Shown in pieces: positions 3,443 through 26,893 of a stretch of 29,327 nt of DNA. Below the pieces are notes generated by a model. It made no database searches and was not told the origin of the DNA. It saw nothing but the letters and a program-made list of their open reading frames with translations. The translations under genes and the position numbers were made by a program. This DNA comes from a virus. Within the stretch, counting starts at the first letter, position 1. Each line of letters begins with the position of its first letter. The DNA is taken from positions 1 to 29,327 of the IMG/VR virus record IMGVR_UViG_3300032293_000534, one strand, 5' to 3'.

Positions 3443-3913
3443 ATGAATACTAAAGACTTTGTACAAGTATTAAGAAAAATCATTAAAGAAGAAGTTAAGA
3501 CAGCTGTTAAGGAAGCTATTAGAGATATGTCTACAGATAATTTAATTGAATCTGTAGTATCTAAACCTAAGCCTGAATACAATTACAAACCTTCTAAAAA
3601 ATCAGCTCCTAAACAATTCGTAAAAGATCCTTTATTAAATAGTTTATTAAACGAAACCGCAGCAAACGGAGTTTCGATTCCTGCTGATACGTTTGGGCAT
3701 GACGATTATTCTGAATGGCCTACAATGGAAAGTTCTGGTATGAATACTAATTTTGCATCTATAATGGGGTCTCCCAAATTTGTAGATAATAGAAAAATAG
3801 ATGCTACTCCAGACGGAATTCCTCCGCAAGCAGTACCGGAAGAAGTTAAAAGCGCCTTAACAAGAGATTACCGTTCATTAATGAAAGCTATTAATAAGAA
3901 AAAAGGTAGTTAA
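3443..3913 (+). CDS. Conserved virion-associated protein of unknown function
   Basis: A 156-residue protein lying between gp5 and gp25. Its first 30 residues form an amphipathic charged helix (VLRKIIKEEVKTAVKEAIRDM), followed by a lysine- and proline-rich disordered linker (about 42-60). A middle part contains DPLLNSLLNETA and FGHDDYSEWPTM, and the C-terminal helix is basic. No enzyme motif is visible. The N-terminal LRKII-EEV/I helix resembles the one that opens the small protein at 28935, which suggests a shared targeting or scaffold-binding signal. A 38 nt gap precedes it, with an AT-only leader. By position it is probably a baseplate or assembly component. Confidence 0.6.
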   Translation: MNTKDFVQVLRKIIKEEVKTAVKEAIRDMSTDNLIESVVSKPKPEYNYKPSKKSAPKQFVKDPLLNSLLNETAANGVSIPADTFGHDDYSEWPTMESSGMNTNFASIMGSPKFVDNRKIDATPDGIPPQAVPEEVKSALTRDYRSLMKAINKKKGS

Positions 3914-9132: not shown

Positions 9133-12100
9133 ATGCAATATTCAAATAACGAAGAAATAATTAAATCAACGTCGAATTTAGATGCGTCTAGAATTGATAT
9201 GGCTGATAAAGAATTATTACTTAACCAAATCTTTGAAATTACTTCATTAGACGAAAGTGCGAGAGATAATTTTGAATTACACGTACATACTCCAGATGGT
9301 ATATATTTAACTGGTGATCATTCTTTAACTTTTGATCAATCTACTAATATAGCGGATAATAAAAGACCTTCTTATAACGTTCAAATTAACCTTAAAGACG
9401 AGCTTAATAAATTAAGTATATATAGAGGCCAATATAAAATTATCGTTAACTTTTTTGATACGTTGATAGGTAATGTTAATGATAAAAGTGCTTGGGTAAA
9501 AGAAATTTCAAATACTAAACAGGAAGTAAAACTTTCTATACCGAAATCATTTTTACCTTACGTAAATAAATTATTTGATTTACGTTATAATTCTTATTTA
9601 CAAGGATTTGCGTCTAACTTTATTTTAAACTTCGGAAAAAATTTAACGTATCCAATTCTTAATATTAAATTAGAAGCAAAATACGATATAACGCCAATAC
9701 GTAAATTTTCAGTACCGGGAGTTAACGTAACTGATTATAATGCAATTAGAGAATATACAATTGAAAATTTGCCAAACGGTACTATTATTCGATCGGTCGA
9801 TCGCAAAGGAAAGTTTGGTGATTTTTACATGATGGAAAATGGTAAGAAACGACCGTTTAATGGAAATCAATGGCTATTATTTGAATTTTGTAAGTTATTA
9901 GAAGCTGCACGATTTAATTCAAATGGAGATTTAGTACGTGCTGCGCAGCCTACATTAATTGATAATGGGTATGGAACCATCATACCTATCTTAATAGATA
10001 TTTCAGATCGAGATATATCTTTTATAACTACAGGAAACTCATTAACAGTAAATGATTTTGTAGGAACGGAAGAGTATGTTAATTTAATTGTTAAATTATA
10101 TAAACCATTAGATGCGGAAATATTAGAAAAATCAAAAGCTTTTATTAGTAATGAATATAGAGAACCGTATACCGATACTGTTTATTTAATTGATAAAGTA
10201 GAACCGATCCAATACAATCAATTAAGGCCTGCTAATTTTAATATTGAAGCATATTCTAAACAAAGTATTCCTACTGAATATAAAAACTGGAACGAATTAT
10301 TAGATGCAAATTTAACTACATCTCAAAAATTAATTGATAATTACTTTTCCGGAAGTTTACAAGGAATTCCATTAAATATTAATTACGCTGAATTTGAAAA
10401 CTTTGTACATTTTAGTTCTGCAGAAGAACGAGTAAAAAACTTTAAATATAAACTAGAATTAATAGAATATTATACAGATAAAATTACTTCTTTATCAGGA
10501 TCTGCAAGTACTAATTTAACTCCATTATATGAAAAGCGTAATTTAATAGTATCTGCTTTTGATAATTTCGAAAATTATTTATTTTACGATTCGGGTAGTT
10601 TACAATTATATACGCACGTATCATATAGTATAGATCCGTGGCCAAAATTATCTACGTCTAATAACTCAAATGATCCTTATCAACAATTCGGATTATTATA
10701 TAGAGTATCGCAAAGTATTGCTCAAGATTATTATACGGATTTATTAGAACAGGCAGTTACGTACGATCATTATAATGTTCATAGGCTATTAAAGGCAGTA
10801 CCATATCACATACGCACTTCAGAAGGAAATGAAGATTTTAATGTATTTGTTGATATGTTGGGACATCATTATGATATCATATGGACATATATTCAACATA
10901 TGTCAAAGATATATTCTCGAGAAGAACATCCTAAAGACGGAATATCAAATGACTTAATTTATCATGCGGCTAAATCGTTAGGATTTCAATTATATAACGG
11001 GCGATCGACATCAGAGTTATGGAAGTATGTATACGGTACGGATAATTCAGGCTCAATTAATCAAGAAGGGGTAAATGGAGTTTATTCATTACCAGATAAA
11101 CAAGTTACTCAAGAATATTGGAGACGTTTATTAAATAATTTACCTTATCTATTAAAAACAAAAGGTACTGAACGTTCTATTAAAGCTTTGTTAGCTTGTT
11201 TCGGAATTCCTAGTACATTATTAACAATAAAAGAATTTGGCGGACCTAGTACATTTATTGAAGAAGCTACTCATTATCCTGAATATGTGCATGAAAAGTT
11301 TGCATTTGCATATAAAGTAAATACGGGTACGTATAACAATTATTTACAAGTAATACCTTCGAAAACAAATAATAAATTTTCTAAAAATGTCAATGCTCTA
11401 GAATTTAGATTTAGATCGGATGACGAAGAAACATATGCAGTAGGAACGGAATATAATTTATTTAGTTATAACATAGGTATTACGTTTGAAAATTCTGCAT
11501 CAATAACCACAAACCCGGATTTAGCAATTACGGTAAAAAAAGAAAGCGCTACAGATACGGAAGGTACTTTAACATTACGTACTTCGAGTGGTAATGCTAC
11601 TATTCCAAATATCAATATATTTGATAATGGATTTAATTTACTTTATTTAGAACAAGCGGGTTCAAATACAACATTGCAATACAGAAAAGCTAAATATGGT
11701 AAAATTGTTGAAACTGGGTCTGCTACATTATCAACTACAGTAATGTTTGATGACGTTAATGCATCTAATGCATTAGGGGCAATGCGATGGGGCAATCCGG
11801 GCGCAGTAACATTAGGAGTTGCATTGAGTCCTTTTGTAGGTCATATACAAGAAATACGTTTATGGAGCGGTTCATTAAATACTGCTTCATTAAATGAACA
11901 TACTCTTTCTCCTAATACTTATACATATAATGTTAATAGAGGAGCATTAACGGGTAATGAAGCTTTAGAGCCATATAATCGTTTAGTTCAAAGATATACA
12001 CTATCAAATAAGTATGTTAATGTATTAACTGCTTCGTTTAGTTCACCGACATCCGCAGATTCATTTACTAGAACATACCAATTAAGTTCCCATCCAAATC

Positions 12101-18332: not shown

Positions 18333-19265
18333 ATGGAAGATACTAGATTATTAGAACTACTGCAGGCAATTTTAGGTAAAGCAAAATCGACTAATAAAGG
18401 TAATGCAGCTTTTCATTGTCCATTTTGTAATACACAAAAAAAGAAATTAGAAGTACAATTATATACAAACGATAAAACGGAAAATCCGTGGCATTGTTGG
18501 GTATGTAATAAATCAGGAAAAAAGATATCTACTTTATTTAAAGCATTAAATGTAGATAAACAAAAGTTTACTGAATTATATCGTATACTTCAAATAACTC
18601 CTGCAAAATATAATATACAAGATGTAGCAGAGCAAGTTAAACTACCAGCCGAATTTCATCCATTATATATAAAACGTCCTTCAGTAGAATATAAAAATGC
18701 ATTATTTTATTTACTTAAAAAACGAGGATTAAGTGTACATGATATTATTAAATATAATATAGGATATTGTGAAGATGGTGAATATAGTAAAAAAATTATT
18801 ATTCCATCATATGATTCAAATGGTAAATTAAATTATTTTGTATCAAGAACATATTACGATGCAGAATCTTTTCGTTATAAAAATCCTGAAGTAAGTAAAA
18901 ATATAGTTGGATTCGAAAATTTAATTAGTTGGGATTTACCTTTAGTTTTAGTAGAAGGGGCATTCGATGCAATTGCAATTAAACGAAATGCTATTCCTTT
19001 ATTTGGTAAAACGATTAGCGAAGATTTAAAAATGAAAGTTATGCAAAACAATGTAAAAGAACTTTATATTTGTTTAGATAAAGACGCACAAAAGCAAGCA
19101 TTAGAGCACGCAGAATATTTTATTAATAACGGAATAATAGTTCATTTCGTTAACTTAGATGAAAAAGATCCTTCTGATATCGGATTTATTAAAATGAAAA
19201 ATATTATACAAGATACAGAACCATTTTCTTTTTCAGATTTAATATCATTAAAATTAGCATTATGA
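18333..19265 (+). CDS. 61: DNA primase, gp61-like
   Basis: A 310-residue protein. The zinc-binding N-terminus has CPFC (C29, C32) and HCWVC (C55, C58), typical of primases that read trinucleotide start sites. A TOPRIM catalytic core follows: LVLVEGAFDAIA with E208, and ICLDKDAQ with D249 and D251 as metal ligands, then KDPSDIGF. T4 gp61 has 342 residues, so length fits. The enzyme should make RNA primers for lagging-strand synthesis with a gp41-type helicase, which is not in this window. An AAGG stretch precedes the ATG. It overlaps the downstream nuclease gene by 4 nt (ATGA), indicating translational coupling of replication and recombination genes. Confidence 0.85.
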   Translation: MEDTRLLELLQAILGKAKSTNKGNAAFHCPFCNTQKKKLEVQLYTNDKTENPWHCWVCNKSGKKISTLFKALNVDKQKFTELYRILQITPAKYNIQDVAEQVKLPAEFHPLYIKRPSVEYKNALFYLLKKRGLSVHDIIKYNIGYCEDGEYSKKIIIPSYDSNGKLNYFVSRTYYDAESFRYKNPEVSKNIVGFENLISWDLPLVLVEGAFDAIAIKRNAIPLFGKTISEDLKMKVMQNNVKELYICLDKDAQKQALEHAEYFINNGIIVHFVNLDEKDPSDIGFIKMKNIIQDTEPFSFSDLISLKLAL

Positions 19266-22200
19266 AAATAGATATAGGATTATCTTCAATTGATAAAATT
19301 TATCATATTGCAGATGTACATATTAGAAATTTAAAACGACATTCAGAATATAAAGAAGTATTTACTCGTTTAAAAGAATATATTTCTTCTACAAAAACTC
19401 CGAATAGTATAATTTATCTCGCCGGAGATATTGTGCACGCTAAAACAGATATGACTCCTGAGCTAATACAAGCTGTACAGGAATTTTTTAAAATGATGGC
19501 AGATGAATTGCCTACTATTTTAATTACGGGAAATCATGATTGTAATTTGAATAATAAAAATAGATTAGATGCTTTAAGTCCAATTGTAAATGCACTTAAA
19601 CATCCCAATTTATTTTATTTAAAAGATTCTGAAGTATATGAAATAGCAGATAAACATTTTGCAGTAATGTCTGTATTTGATAAAGCAGTTGATTATATAA
19701 AGGCAGACTCATTTACCGCTCCTTATAAGATTGCATTGCATCATGGATCGGTGGATAACTCATATACAGACGTAGGATTTAGATTAGAAAATAAACATGT
19801 TAATAACGATACATTTGCAGGATATGATTTAGTATTACTAGGAGATATTCATAAAGTTCAGTATTTAGATTCTAAAAAAACAATTGCATACGCCGGAAGT
19901 TTAATTCAACAGAATCATTCAGAAGGATTAAAACATGGGTTATTAGTTTGGAATCTAAACGATAAGTCATCTCAGTTTATTCAAATACAAAATGACTATT
20001 GTTTTTATACGTTAGATATAGATAATGGAAAACATGCTTCGTATGATAATTTACCTAAAAACGTACATTTAAGAATAAGAGTTAAAGATACGGAATCAGA
20101 TGTAGTAAATTTAATACTTGCTGATTTTAAAATGAAATATAACGTAGTCGAAGTCGTAATACAAAAAACTAACGATTTTGCTCATAAACGCTCGACCTCG
20201 AAGAAAATAGATATAGGTGATATCCGCGATCCTGAAAACCAAAATACGCTAATCTATGACTATTTAAAACAAAAATTTAACCTCGACGATACATTTTTAG
20301 ACGGTGTTAGGCATATAAATCGAAAGACAAATAGTAGTTTAGTTGCAGCAGATATCACTCGTAATATAATTTGGTTGCCAAAGAAGTTTGAATTTTCAAA
20401 TATGTTTTCTTACGGAGAAAATAACGTAATTGATTTTACAAATTGTAAAGGTACATATGGTATATTCGCTCCTAATGCAAGCGGTAAATCTACATTATTA
20501 GAAGCTCTTTCATATTGTATATTTGATAAATGCGCAAGAGCATTTAAAGCAGTGCATGTAATGAACAATAAAAAAGATTCATTTCATTGTAAATTTAATT
20601 TTGAAATTGATGGTGTAGATTATTTTATAGAAAAGTCTGCAACACGTACAAAATCAGGGCATGTAAAAGTAGAAATTGATTTTTGGTATATAAATGAAGC
20701 TGGCGATTCTATTTTCTTAAACGGTCAAGAACGTAGTGACACTAATAATATTATTAGAAAACATGTAGGTACATACGAAGATTTTATTTTAACTTCATTA
20801 TCATTACAAAATAACAATACTGCATTTATCGATATGAGCCAGAAGGACCGTAAAGATTTACTAGCTCAGTTTTTAGATATTAATGTATTTGAAAGTTTAT
20901 ATAATATTGCTAATGCAGAAAGTAAAGATATATCAGTATTAATTAAAGAACATAAAAAGACAGATTATACCGGGACTGTAGCAAAACATGAAAATGAAAT
21001 TCAGTCATTAAATACTACATTAATAAAATTAGAACAAGATAAAACCAAAGTAGATGATTTAATTTCTGAGTTAAATGATAAAATTGTATCACAAACTAGT
21101 TTACTTAAACCTATTGATGTTAATGTAATCGATCTACAAGAATCGTTAGATAAGCAACAACGTTACGAAGATAAAAGTTTAGAATGTAATACTAATTTAA
21201 ATTTAATATTAGGACAAAGAGAAGATCTACAGCAAGAAATAAATCAGTTAACTGGAAGTTTAGATACATTTAATAAAACGGAAATAGATAATCAGTTAAA
21301 TGAAATGAATAAAATAGCTACTGAAAAATCTTCGTATGAAAGTATGTTAACTCGATTATCTACAACATATAAACATACAAAAGAAAAGGCAGATAAATTA
21401 GATACATTAGAATACGATCCTAATTGTAAATTTTGTATGAACAATGTATTTGTTAAAGATGCAGTAGACGCTAAAAATAAATTAAACGAATTAGAATCTC
21501 AAGTTACTGAATTACAAAATAAAGTAAATGATTATGATATTAAATTAAGATCATATCAAATTTGGATAGACCAATCTAAATCATATACTTCTGCTATTGA
21601 TATTATTACAAGAAAAAATATCGCTCTTAATTCTACCAATACGAAGATTCAGACAATGAAATCTAATTGCGATACTATCGATAAATCTTTAGATCAAATT
21701 AAAAAAGATATTGAACTTTATAAACAAAATGAAGAATCGATAGCTGCAAATAAAATTGTACAAGAAATAATAGAAGAATTACAATCTAAAAAGAAACAAG
21801 CAACGGATGTTAGTAATGCTTTAAATAAACAAATTATTCAGCTTAATGGAAATATACAAATGCATGAAGCAAATAAGCAAACTGCATTAGATGCTATACA
21901 AAAGTTAGCTGATTTAGAAATACAATATAAATACTATCAATATTATTTGGAAGCAGTAAATAGAGACGGTGTACCTTATCATTTAATTAGTTTAGCTATT
22001 CCTCAAATTGAACAAGAAATAAATAATATACTTATTCCAATTGTAGATTTCGTAATTAAATTAGATACTGACGGAAAAAATATTAATGCTTATATTGTAT
22101 ATGATACTGATAGTTTTTGGCCAATAGAATTGACTTCTGGTATGGAAAGATTTTTAAGTTCATTAGCAATACGTTCTGCATTAATTAATGTATCTAGTTT

Positions 22201-22408
22201 ACCGCGACCAAACTTTTTAGCAATTGACGAGGGATTTGGGGTATTAGATTCGGATAAATTAATTAGTATTTATTCATTATTTAATTATCTTAAAATACAG
22301 TTTACTTCGTTATTTATTATTTCTCATATTGATTCCATGAGAGATGTTGTTGATAGTTTAATTGAAATTAATAAAATTAATTCTTTCTCCAAGATAGACT
22401 TCCATTGA
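19262..22408 (+). CDS. Single-chain Mre11-Rad50-type recombination nuclease (gp47-gp46 fusion)
   Basis: One continuous 1048-residue frame encodes both halves of the SbcD/SbcC (gp47/gp46) complex. Residues 1 to about 345 are a calcineurin-like nuclease with ADVH (D18, H20), GDIV (D56), GNHD (90-93), HHG (H160, H161) and GDIH (D195, H197). Residues about 370-1048 are a Rad50-type ATPase: Walker A GIFAPNASGKST (400-411), Q-loop Q516, a long coiled coil broken at the zinc-hook motif CKFC (722-725), the signature LTSGMERFLSSLA (S959-G960), Walker B FLAIDEGFGVLD (D989, E990) and switch SH (1021-1022). In T4 the two are separate (339 and 560 residues). It should resect DNA ends for recombination-dependent replication and host DNA breakdown. 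No frameshift or stop is seen at the junction. Confidence 0.92.
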   Translation: MKIDIGLSSIDKIYHIADVHIRNLKRHSEYKEVFTRLKEYISSTKTPNSIIYLAGDIVHAKTDMTPELIQAVQEFFKMMADELPTILITGNHDCNLNNKNRLDALSPIVNALKHPNLFYLKDSEVYEIADKHFAVMSVFDKAVDYIKADSFTAPYKIALHHGSVDNSYTDVGFRLENKHVNNDTFAGYDLVLLGDIHKVQYLDSKKTIAYAGSLIQQNHSEGLKHGLLVWNLNDKSSQFIQIQNDYCFYTLDIDNGKHASYDNLPKNVHLRIRVKDTESDVVNLILADFKMKYNVVEVVIQKTNDFAHKRSTSKKIDIGDIRDPENQNTLIYDYLKQKFNLDDTFLDGVRHINRKTNSSLVAADITRNIIWLPKKFEFSNMFSYGENNVIDFTNCKGTYGIFAPNASGKSTLLEALSYCIFDKCARAFKAVHVMNNKKDSFHCKFNFEIDGVDYFIEKSATRTKSGHVKVEIDFWYINEAGDSIFLNGQERSDTNNIIRKHVGTYEDFILTSLSLQNNNTAFIDMSQKDRKDLLAQFLDINVFESLYNIANAESKDISVLIKEHKKTDYTGTVAKHENEIQSLNTTLIKLEQDKTKVDDLISELNDKIVSQTSLLKPIDVNVIDLQESLDKQQRYEDKSLECNTNLNLILGQREDLQQEINQLTGSLDTFNKTEIDNQLNEMNKIATEKSSYESMLTRLSTTYKHTKEKADKLDTLEYDPNCKFCMNNVFVKDAVDAKNKLNELESQVTELQNKVNDYDIKLRSYQIWIDQSKSYTSAIDIITRKNIALNSTNTKIQTMKSNCDTIDKSLDQIKKDIELYKQNEESIAANKIVQEIIEELQSKKKQATDVSNALNKQIIQLNGNIQMHEANKQTALDAIQKLADLEIQYKYYQYYLEAVNRDGVPYHLISLAIPQIEQEINNILIPIVDFVIKLDTDGKNINAYIVYDTDSFWPIELTSGMERFLSSLAIRSALINVSSLPRPNFLAIDEGFGVLDSDKLISIYSLFNYLKIQFTSLFIISHIDSMRDVVDSLIEINKINSFSKIDFH

Positions 22409-24417: not shown

Positions 24418-25599
24418 ATGAAAATAATCGCAATTTATCCAGGCAGATTTCAACCTTTTGGTAAACATCATGCAGAAGCATTTAAATGGTTACAATCTCA
24501 ATTTGGCGCTAATAACTCTTATATAGTTACTTCCAATGTAGTTAGTTTACCTAAATCTCCTTTAGATTTTAAAGATAAAAAAGATATTATTACTCAATAT
24601 GGTTTAGGCAAACATGTAGTAAATGTTAAAAATCCATATAAAGCAGAAGAATTGTTATCTAAATTCGATCCAGCCACTACGGCAGTAGTTTTTATGGTAG
24701 GTCAAAAAGATATGGAAGAAGATCCTAGATTTAAGATAGGTAAATTAAAATCAGCCAAAGATTCTTATTTTCAAGATTATTCTAAAAATATAAAAAAACT
24801 AAAAGGTTTTGATACTCATGGTTATTTAGTTGTAGCACCTCATGTGTCAATTAAAATACCAGGATTTGGTGAAATGAGCGGAACGGCAATACGTAATGCA
24901 ATAGGGTCAGCCGATACTGAAGCTAAGCGTAAAGAATTATTTTCTGTAGTATTTGGGTGGTATAATTCTTCATTAGCTAAAAAATTACATGATAAATTTA
25001 ATATGAAGGCCGAAAGTATAATTGAAAGTTATATGTCTTCTAACAACGATTTTATTGAAGAAGGATATATGTCTACAAAGCAGCAAAAAAACCATAATAC
25101 AAAATTAGATAAATTAAAAGATTTTTTAGATAAAAATCACGGGCGTGAATTTGTTTATGATTTTGAAGAATTTCCTAAAACGGTATATGGAGTTAACATA
25201 GAAGAAAAAGTTTTTTGGGATAACTTTTTTAAATTAATAATGGAAGGAGGCGCCGGAGGTCATATGGCACATCCATTTGATATACCTAGCGTTACTACCG
25301 GAAATGATTTAATAAATGTGTTTAATCAGTCTATAGAATATTTAGGTAAGAAACCCGCATCAGTTAAAATTGATGGCGTTAATGCTTCTATACGTTTAGT
25401 TAAATTAAATAATAAACTTCAATTTGTAATGGATAGAGGTTCTAATAAACCTTTAGATGTAAAGGGAATTACAAAAGCAGAATTAGAAGATAGATTTGGT
25501 TCGGGACATGGCATGATTAAAATAGGTGGAACTGTATTAGATATTTTTAATGATTCATTATCTACTTGTAAACCTGAACTTAAGGCATTAGGATTATAA
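24418..25599 (+). CDS. Nucleotidyltransferase fused to N-terminal part of a ligase-like domain (5' half of an interrupted gene)
   Basis: A 393-residue product. Residues 1-190 are a HIGH-type nucleotidyltransferase fold (NMN adenylyltransferase/cytidylyltransferase-like): IYPGRFQPFGKHHAEAF with H17, H18 in the GRFQPF--(G/H)H site, VFMVGQKD, and the closing motif MSGTAIRNAI (153-162). A charged linker (200-270) follows. Residues about 275-393 start a covalent nucleotidyltransferase (RNA/DNA ligase) domain with motif I KIDG (K317 as the expected nucleotide-bearing lysine), then FVMDRGS and GHGM. The frame stops at TAA 25597-25599 before motifs III-V, which appear in the same frame in the next ORF. 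The two are best read as one gene interrupted by a stop codon. Confidence 0.8.
   Translation: MKIIAIYPGRFQPFGKHHAEAFKWLQSQFGANNSYIVTSNVVSLPKSPLDFKDKKDIITQYGLGKHVVNVKNPYKAEELLSKFDPATTAVVFMVGQKDMEEDPRFKIGKLKSAKDSYFQDYSKNIKKLKGFDTHGYLVVAPHVSIKIPGFGEMSGTAIRNAIGSADTEAKRKELFSVVFGWYNSSLAKKLHDKFNMKAESIIESYMSSNNDFIEEGYMSTKQQKNHNTKLDKLKDFLDKNHGREFVYDFEEFPKTVYGVNIEEKVFWDNFFKLIMEGGAGGHMAHPFDIPSVTTGNDLINVFNQSIEYLGKKPASVKIDGVNASIRLVKLNNKLQFVMDRGSNKPLDVKGITKAELEDRFGSGHGMIKIGGTVLDIFNDSLSTCKPELKALGL
25597..25599 (+). other. In-frame TAA interrupting a ligase-like gene
   Basis: This TAA is in the same reading frame as the ATG at 25615. Read through, the chain would run LGL-stop-DNPNIMFNIEYVAG without a gap, joining ligase motif I upstream to motifs III-V downstream. 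TAA is the normal stop of most genes here, so it is not a recoded sense codon across the genome. One base change from a sense codon such as CAA, AAA, GAA, TTA or TAT would create it. Confidence 0.8.
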
Positions 25600-25614
25600 G
25601 ATAATCCAAATATA

Positions 25615-26268
25615 ATGTTTAATATTGAATATGTAGCAGGTTCTACAAACGTATTATCATACGGTAAAAACTTTTTAGCAATACATGGATTATTAGAAAT
25701 TAAACAAGTAACTGAAAAGAAAAGAGCTACAAGTGAAATTTCTTATAATAAATCTACAATGCAAAAGTTATTAAATAAATTAAATCCTATAGCTCAAAAT
25801 TATGGATATGAAGTTTTAGGATCAATTCCTACTACATTAGAATCGCAGCCAGATTTAAATAGCGAATTAAATAAAAAATATACAGTAAATTACGGTCCTA
25901 AAAAAGAAACTAAAACATTGAAACAATGGTTAGCTTCTGCAAAAGTACCTCGCGGTAATATTAAAACAGTTGAAGGAAAATCAATTACTGCATTATCAAA
26001 AGAAGTTTTATTAAAGATTTCTGAAGGAACTCCATTAAATAAATTTATAGCAGATAAAAAAGATTATCAAGATGCAATTGATGGATTTGTTATTTATATT
26101 GCTACTATGAAATTAGGAGATGCAGTATTAGCAAAATTAAATTCTCCTTTAGGCCCTGTGTCAGAACAAGAAGGGATTGTTATCCGTGATCCGAAAATTT
26201 ATAATAAACCGTTTAAAATTACAGGTAAATTTATCGTAGGCGGTTTAGCATCATCATTTAAGAAATAA
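25615..26268 (+). CDS. C-terminal part of the ligase-like domain (3' half of an interrupted gene)
   Basis: A 217-residue ORF beginning at an internal ATG 15 bases after the stop of the preceding frame. It carries the motifs missing upstream: NIEYVAGSTNV (motif III-like, E5) and KNFLAIHGL near the start, SEQEGIVIRDP (motif IV, E186) and PFKITGKF (motif V, K201 and K205). The central 100 residues are a helical, lysine-rich insertion without a recognised fold. On its own it lacks the motif I lysine and could not form the enzyme-nucleotide intermediate. It must pair with the upstream product, be joined to it by readthrough, or be a broken remnant. The ATG may serve for reinitiation, since no Shine-Dalgarno sequence precedes it. 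Confidence 0.75.
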   Translation: MFNIEYVAGSTNVLSYGKNFLAIHGLLEIKQVTEKKRATSEISYNKSTMQKLLNKLNPIAQNYGYEVLGSIPTTLESQPDLNSELNKKYTVNYGPKKETKTLKQWLASAKVPRGNIKTVEGKSITALSKEVLLKISEGTPLNKFIADKKDYQDAIDGFVIYIATMKLGDAVLAKLNSPLGPVSEQEGIVIRDPKIYNKPFKITGKFIVGGLASSFKK

Positions 26269-26284
26269 TTATATATAAAATAAT

Positions 26285-26893
26285 ATGACAAAGTTACGTA
26301 ATATAAGTGCAATTAGAAAAATGTTAGACGGTACTCACCGTAGCCAGACAAAAACATCAGTTTCGTTAAATACTTCAGAAGCTCCTATTAAAAGAGAAGT
26401 AGGAGAAAGATGGGTCGATGAAACTGGTAAAGAATGGGAACAGAGACAAGGTTATAAAATTAGCGTTACAAAAGCTTTAGATTTAATAGCAGAAAATCGA
26501 ATGCCGGCTAATTGCCCTAAATGTAGTAATCCAATGACAAAAAAGAATTTGGATGAAAAAATGTGGAATATTCATAAAATATGTTTCGATTGCGTAATTG
26601 ATATGGAACATCAATTACGATTAGAAGGAAAGTATAATGAATATGAAAAACAAAAGATTAGAGAAAATGCTATGGCTTGGTTAAGAGATGCAGAAAAAGA
26701 TGTAGAAGATTTAGTTAATGCTTATCGATACGCATCTTTCGTTAATCAAGACGGGTCAGTAGAAAAATGGACAGGCGGATTATCTGCAGAAGAATTTGAA
26801 GCTAAAGTACGTGGAGAGTTTAACAAATTTAAAACAGAATTTATTGATAAATTAGATGGTAAACAAATAGATGAGACAATTAAAGATATTTGA
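26285..26893 (+). CDS. Conserved phage protein with zinc-ribbon-like cysteines
   Basis: A 202-residue protein. The N-terminal 60 residues hold a conserved-looking block (AIRKMLDGTHRSQTKT, VGERWVDETGKEWEQRQGYK). Next come two CxxC pairs, C77-C80 (NCPKCSNPM) and C100-C103 (KICFDCVIDM), spaced as in a treble-clef or zinc-ribbon site. The C-terminal 100 residues are charged alpha helices. It seems to recur in marine T4-like phages as a protein without a role. Zn binding is inferred from the four cysteines. It overlaps the next gene by 23 nt, an unusually long overlap for this window, which suggests coupled translation. Confidence 0.65.
   Translation: MTKLRNISAIRKMLDGTHRSQTKTSVSLNTSEAPIKREVGERWVDETGKEWEQRQGYKISVTKALDLIAENRMPANCPKCSNPMTKKNLDEKMWNIHKICFDCVIDMEHQLRLEGKYNEYEKQKIRENAMAWLRDAEKDVEDLVNAYRYASFVNQDGSVEKWTGGLSAEEFEAKVRGEFNKFKTEFIDKLDGKQIDETIKDI

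Follow-up and report, generated by a model that had tools for sequence, protein, structure and literature searches.

Does the single in-frame TAA that divides a ligase-like gene in the viral record IMGVR_UViG_3300032293_000534 separate two genuine gene products, is it read through, or is it an accident in a gene that is normally open? We addressed this question on the whole record of 29,327 nucleotides (nt), hereafter the window, which, because baseplate wedge genes are present in these 29 kb, is, as far as gene content tells, a piece of the genome of a contractile-tailed phage. The analysis covers one assembled record of this genome, compared with relatives. The stop is almost certainly an isolated recent nonsense mutation or a consensus error in one record of a normally open gene, because none of 113 distinct contexts carries a stop at this position, the nearest relatives are open, and both sides of the stop are conserved.

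One reading frame interrupted by a single TAA

The two open reading frames (ORFs) concerned lie in one frame, and the TAA is their sole interruption. The features of the locus are as follows.

24418..25599, + strand: first ORF, 393 amino acids (aa); HIGH-type nucleotidyltransferase domain (residues ~1 to 200), linker, and first part of the ligase-like domain, in which motif I (KIDG, K317) lies; closed by the lone TAA; matches phrog_395 cytidyltransferase (E 6.3e-6), with PF01467 found in 24/28 relatives
25597..25599, + strand: the single in-frame TAA, at residue 394 once the halves are joined; a sense codon in 113/113 relative contexts
25591..25607, + strand: inverted repeat of 7 bp with a 3-nt loop, across the stop; shared with the three nearest relatives, all intact, and not rarer than chance in the window
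25615..26268, + strand: second ORF, 217 aa; remainder of the ligase-like domain with motifs III (NIEYVAG), IV (EGIVIRD), and V (KITGKF)

An initial annotation of this DNA had described two ORFs that share a frame with one in-frame TAA between them, motif I in the first and motifs III, IV, and V in the second, both halves being otherwise intact. The ORF list and the read-through translation bear this out. The joined chain (KALGL, the stop, then DNPNIMFNIEYVAG) has 616 residues and no second stop, is conserved on both sides of the TAA, and carries KIDG at K317, EGIVI from E585, and KITGKF from K600. Furthermore, homologues align across the stop position without a gap, and the stop is thus not an accident of the alignment. 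Since 243 of the 617 codons of the gene are one step away from a stop codon, one change is enough to create a stop.

Relatives carry an uninterrupted chain

We scanned viral contigs three times, using both halves and their alignment as queries, and the third scan yielded at least 544 confirmed relatives of the ligase-like chain. When the joined translation was aligned with its homologues, as the initial annotation had proposed, the relatives were found to carry one uninterrupted chain. Among the viral-contig matches listed, the stop position was covered in 113 distinct contexts, which were deduplicated by DNA, so that closely related contigs are counted separately. The position of residue 394 was occupied by Trp (67 contexts), Leu (25), Ile (13), Tyr (5), Thr (1), Phe (1), or Val (1), and by a stop codon in none of them. 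The three nearest relatives among these matches (L001, L002, and L003; 80 to 86% identical) have chains that are open through this position over 608, 620, and 613 codons, respectively, counted from stop to stop.

Homologues present as two ORFs, which would point to a normal gene pair, were looked for, and none was split here. Likewise, the conserved break that would mark a naturally split or two-gene ligase was not seen in the relatives, which are single chains. The relatives differ in how entire domains are fused, ordered, or separated, but they keep the ligase domain undivided. Additionally, no frame break appeared when the remaining 23 ORFs were aligned with near relatives. Intact close relatives, conserved flanks, and no other decay, all of which were observed, are what would be expected of an isolated nonsense change.

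A lone TAA was also observed in the same gene of another relative (L012, contig G004, positions 3556 to 3558), at residue 585 within motif IV. Its sibling L009 has a sense codon there, indicating that scattered single stops occur in assemblies of these relatives. Premature stops numbered 1 in 52,662 codons of this gene in relatives and 0 in approximately 22,000 codons of six neighboring genes; these counts are too few to differ, and we rejected the idea that the gene is prone to mutation. A scan of bacterial and archaeal genomes returned just four distant relatives and was uninformative on the host and on a split.

Constraint persists beyond the stop

Changes private to the window were identified by simple parsimony on four sequences, the window and its three nearest relatives. 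After the stop we counted 11 silent and 6 replacement changes, where approximately 37 replacements would be expected if this part were unconstrained, and none of the 6 falls on an invariant residue. The pairwise ratio of nonsynonymous to synonymous substitution rates (dN/dS) against near relatives was low, at 0.09 to 0.18, within the ligase-like domain before as well as after the TAA. The ligase-domain profile gave the window a score of 581.6 bits, compared to 579.9 to 583.4 for close intact relatives. Because constraint is kept downstream, the profile score is like that of intact relatives, and the other 23 ORFs are unbroken, the stop is, on this comparative evidence, either very young or not real.

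What sets this record apart from its kin is the TAA at residue 394, which arose either very recently, as a nonsense mutation of the sampled phage, or as an error in the metagenome consensus. The initial annotation had named a recent nonsense mutation or sequencing error as one of its options, and it is this option that a stop unique to one sequence, flanked by conserved sequence on both sides, supports; the data fit either a real mutation or an assembly consensus error. A real mutation would probably yield the nucleotidyltransferase domain followed by a truncated, inactive ligase domain without motifs III to V. A restart product of 217 aa, if any, would be without the catalytic lysine, and we infer that ligase activity would be lost. 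The possibility that a second ligase copy makes the gene dispensable was rejected: the records that we examined, two of which measure 132 and 174 kb, have one copy each, although the window record is itself a fragment.

Two points weigh against an isolated mutation or error. A low replacement rate past the stop is also expected if the downstream part is still translated, and a stop-carrying population of near-identical phage may exist.

The gene encodes a two-domain protein

By its profiles, motifs, and predicted folds, the product of this normally uninterrupted phage gene is a two-domain protein in which a HIGH-type nucleotidyltransferase is followed by an RNA-ligase-like covalent nucleotidyltransferase. 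For the N-terminal domain, the profile matches given above are joined by best PDB fold matches to nicotinamide mononucleotide (NMN) adenylyltransferases. Both the CTP_transf_like profile and the fold thus place this domain in the HIGH superfamily. Its HxGH-type motif (window positions 24418 to 24480) reads GKHH (GRFQPFGKHH), with Gly for the first His, as it does in many relatives.

The C-terminal ligase-like domain spans residues ~277 to 616. Motifs I, III, IV, and V of the RNA ligase superfamily occur in order, with a lysine nucleophile, and K317, E404, E585, and K600 are invariant in our two alignments (A1 and A2). The model of the domain had a predicted local distance difference test score (pLDDT) of 91 and a predicted template modeling score (pTM) of 0.86. 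Its best PDB fold matches were T4 Rnl1, an archaeal RNA ligase, T4 Rnl2, and trypanosome REL1, all with weak scores (E 3.7e-3; template modeling [TM] score ~0.24). Among 50 relatives, PF09414 RNA_ligase was the most frequent profile match, although a weak one (8/50, best E 0.009), and Pfam, PHROG, and PDB gave no significant sequence match to the ligase part of the chain in the window. The assignment as RNA-ligase-like is thus well supported by the motifs, whereas profile and fold are only suggestive of it.

The ligase-like domain (window positions 25225 to 26268, alignment A2) belongs to a large viral family of at least 544 contigs that has neither a significant Pfam match nor a PHROG in common. 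It is found alone, after a HIGH nucleotidyltransferase, in chains extended past the ligase domain (L140, L147, and L148), or in chains that reach 1,411 residues. In our opinion, this gene family, a large, poorly annotated set of phage proteins that combine a HIGH nucleotidyltransferase with an RNA-ligase-like domain, is more interesting than the stop.

Alternative explanations for the stop

It is improbable, although compatible with the low replacement rate after the TAA, that the stop is real and tolerated in this lineage, with reinitiation or low readthrough keeping the ligase active as two chains or at a reduced dose.

Even less probable is a split enzyme, in which translation would stop at the TAA and start again at the ATG at position 25615, and the two resulting chains would associate to form a functional ligase. 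This ATG is in frame, 15 nt past the TAA, and conservation extends over both halves. A clear Shine-Dalgarno sequence is missing for many window genes, and its lack at 25615 would therefore be no bar to initiation. However, none of the relatives is split here (0/113 contexts), and they keep the ligase domain whole even where entire domains separate or reorder. According to the model, the break falls not at a domain boundary but within one compact ligase-like domain, between the helix at residues 381 to 390 and the motif III strand at residues 399 to 409. A restart would separate the catalytic lysine from motifs III to V, which would lie on the other chain. The initial annotation had stated that no residues are missing between the halves, which holds for a read-through chain but not for a restart at ATG 25615 (residue 400): residues 394 to 399, including the invariant N396 and N398, would then be in neither product. 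Moreover, this ATG corresponds to the Met (or Leu) position of a conserved N-P-N-I-M-F-N stretch. Judging from the modeled fold, a working split at this site is unlikely, and the genuine split enzyme suggested initially finds no support in the open nearest relatives either. The case serves mainly as a caution: before an alignment with relatives is made, a lone stop in a single metagenome contig resembles a split enzyme.

We see no better prospects for readthrough, whether programmed or by suppression of the TAA, which would supply small amounts of the 616-residue protein. The frame is open and under purifying selection downstream of the TAA, a 131-nt region that starts at position 25590 forms a somewhat better fold than shuffled versions of it do (z -2.4), and conserved in-frame stops under purifying selection have been reported for bacteria (PMC7918605). 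Against these stands a TAA that is present in 1 of 114 contexts, the nearest relatives having one open chain, and that is accompanied by no tRNA gene, hence by no phage suppressor tRNA, within the 29-kb fragment. The hairpin at the stop was rejected as a recoding signal: it is common to intact relatives, and 9 such repeats occur in the window compared to approximately 6 expected. No structured RNA family was found in the window. Programmed readthrough, also raised in the initial annotation, is thus unsupported.

The idea that this phage reads TAA as a sense codon can practically be discarded, since nothing beyond the in-frame TAA itself speaks for it, whereas 18 of the 25 listed ORFs end with TAA, at points that largely match the ends of their relatives.

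Neighboring genes

The window ORF at 26871 to 28145 matches phrog_415 (polynucleotide kinase) over residues 1 to 150 only, its HAD-phosphatase-like part (DFDDT), and no assignment emerged for its C-terminal part. Its homologue in L084 (contig G002, positions 9550 to 11321) consists of two ORFs that overlap and lie in different frames, and the HAD-like part is set apart from the C-terminal part by approximately 480 additional bases. At window positions 19262 to 22408, one ORF of 1,048 aa has profile matches to a calcineurin-like phosphoesterase and to an AAA_23/SMC-type ATPase, consistent with an SbcD-like/SbcC-like fusion.

Comparison with known systems

The ligase-like domain resembles the RNA ligase superfamily (PF09414; T4 Rnl1 and Rnl2) in its motif order (KIDG, NIEYV.G, EGIVIRD, and K.TG.F) and in key residues that are invariant in 50 relatives, but it is very divergent in sequence. 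Similarly, phrog_395, PF01467, and the NMN adenylyltransferase folds link the first domain to HIGH-superfamily adenylyl- and cytidylyltransferases of the NadM/NadD type. It differs from these in having GKHH as its HxGH-type motif and in being fused to a ligase-like domain rather than to a Nudix domain. The nearest annotated phage protein is the cytidylyltransferase-like WWT39297.1 of Microcystis phage Mel-JY01, which matches the nucleotidyltransferase part and, via a relative, part of the ligase domain. However, it is approximately 39% identical and is encoded by one uninterrupted coding sequence of 1,920 nt.

Finally, the locus shares an in-frame stop and flanks under purifying selection with the conserved in-frame stops for which readthrough has been described in bacteria. 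In that survey of bacterial genes, a stop was counted only if it was shared by at least two independent genomes, which excludes sequencing error (Belinky et al. 2021; PMC7918605). Unlike those stops, the TAA of the window is common to no other genome found, which is the very criterion by which that study guarded against sequencing error.
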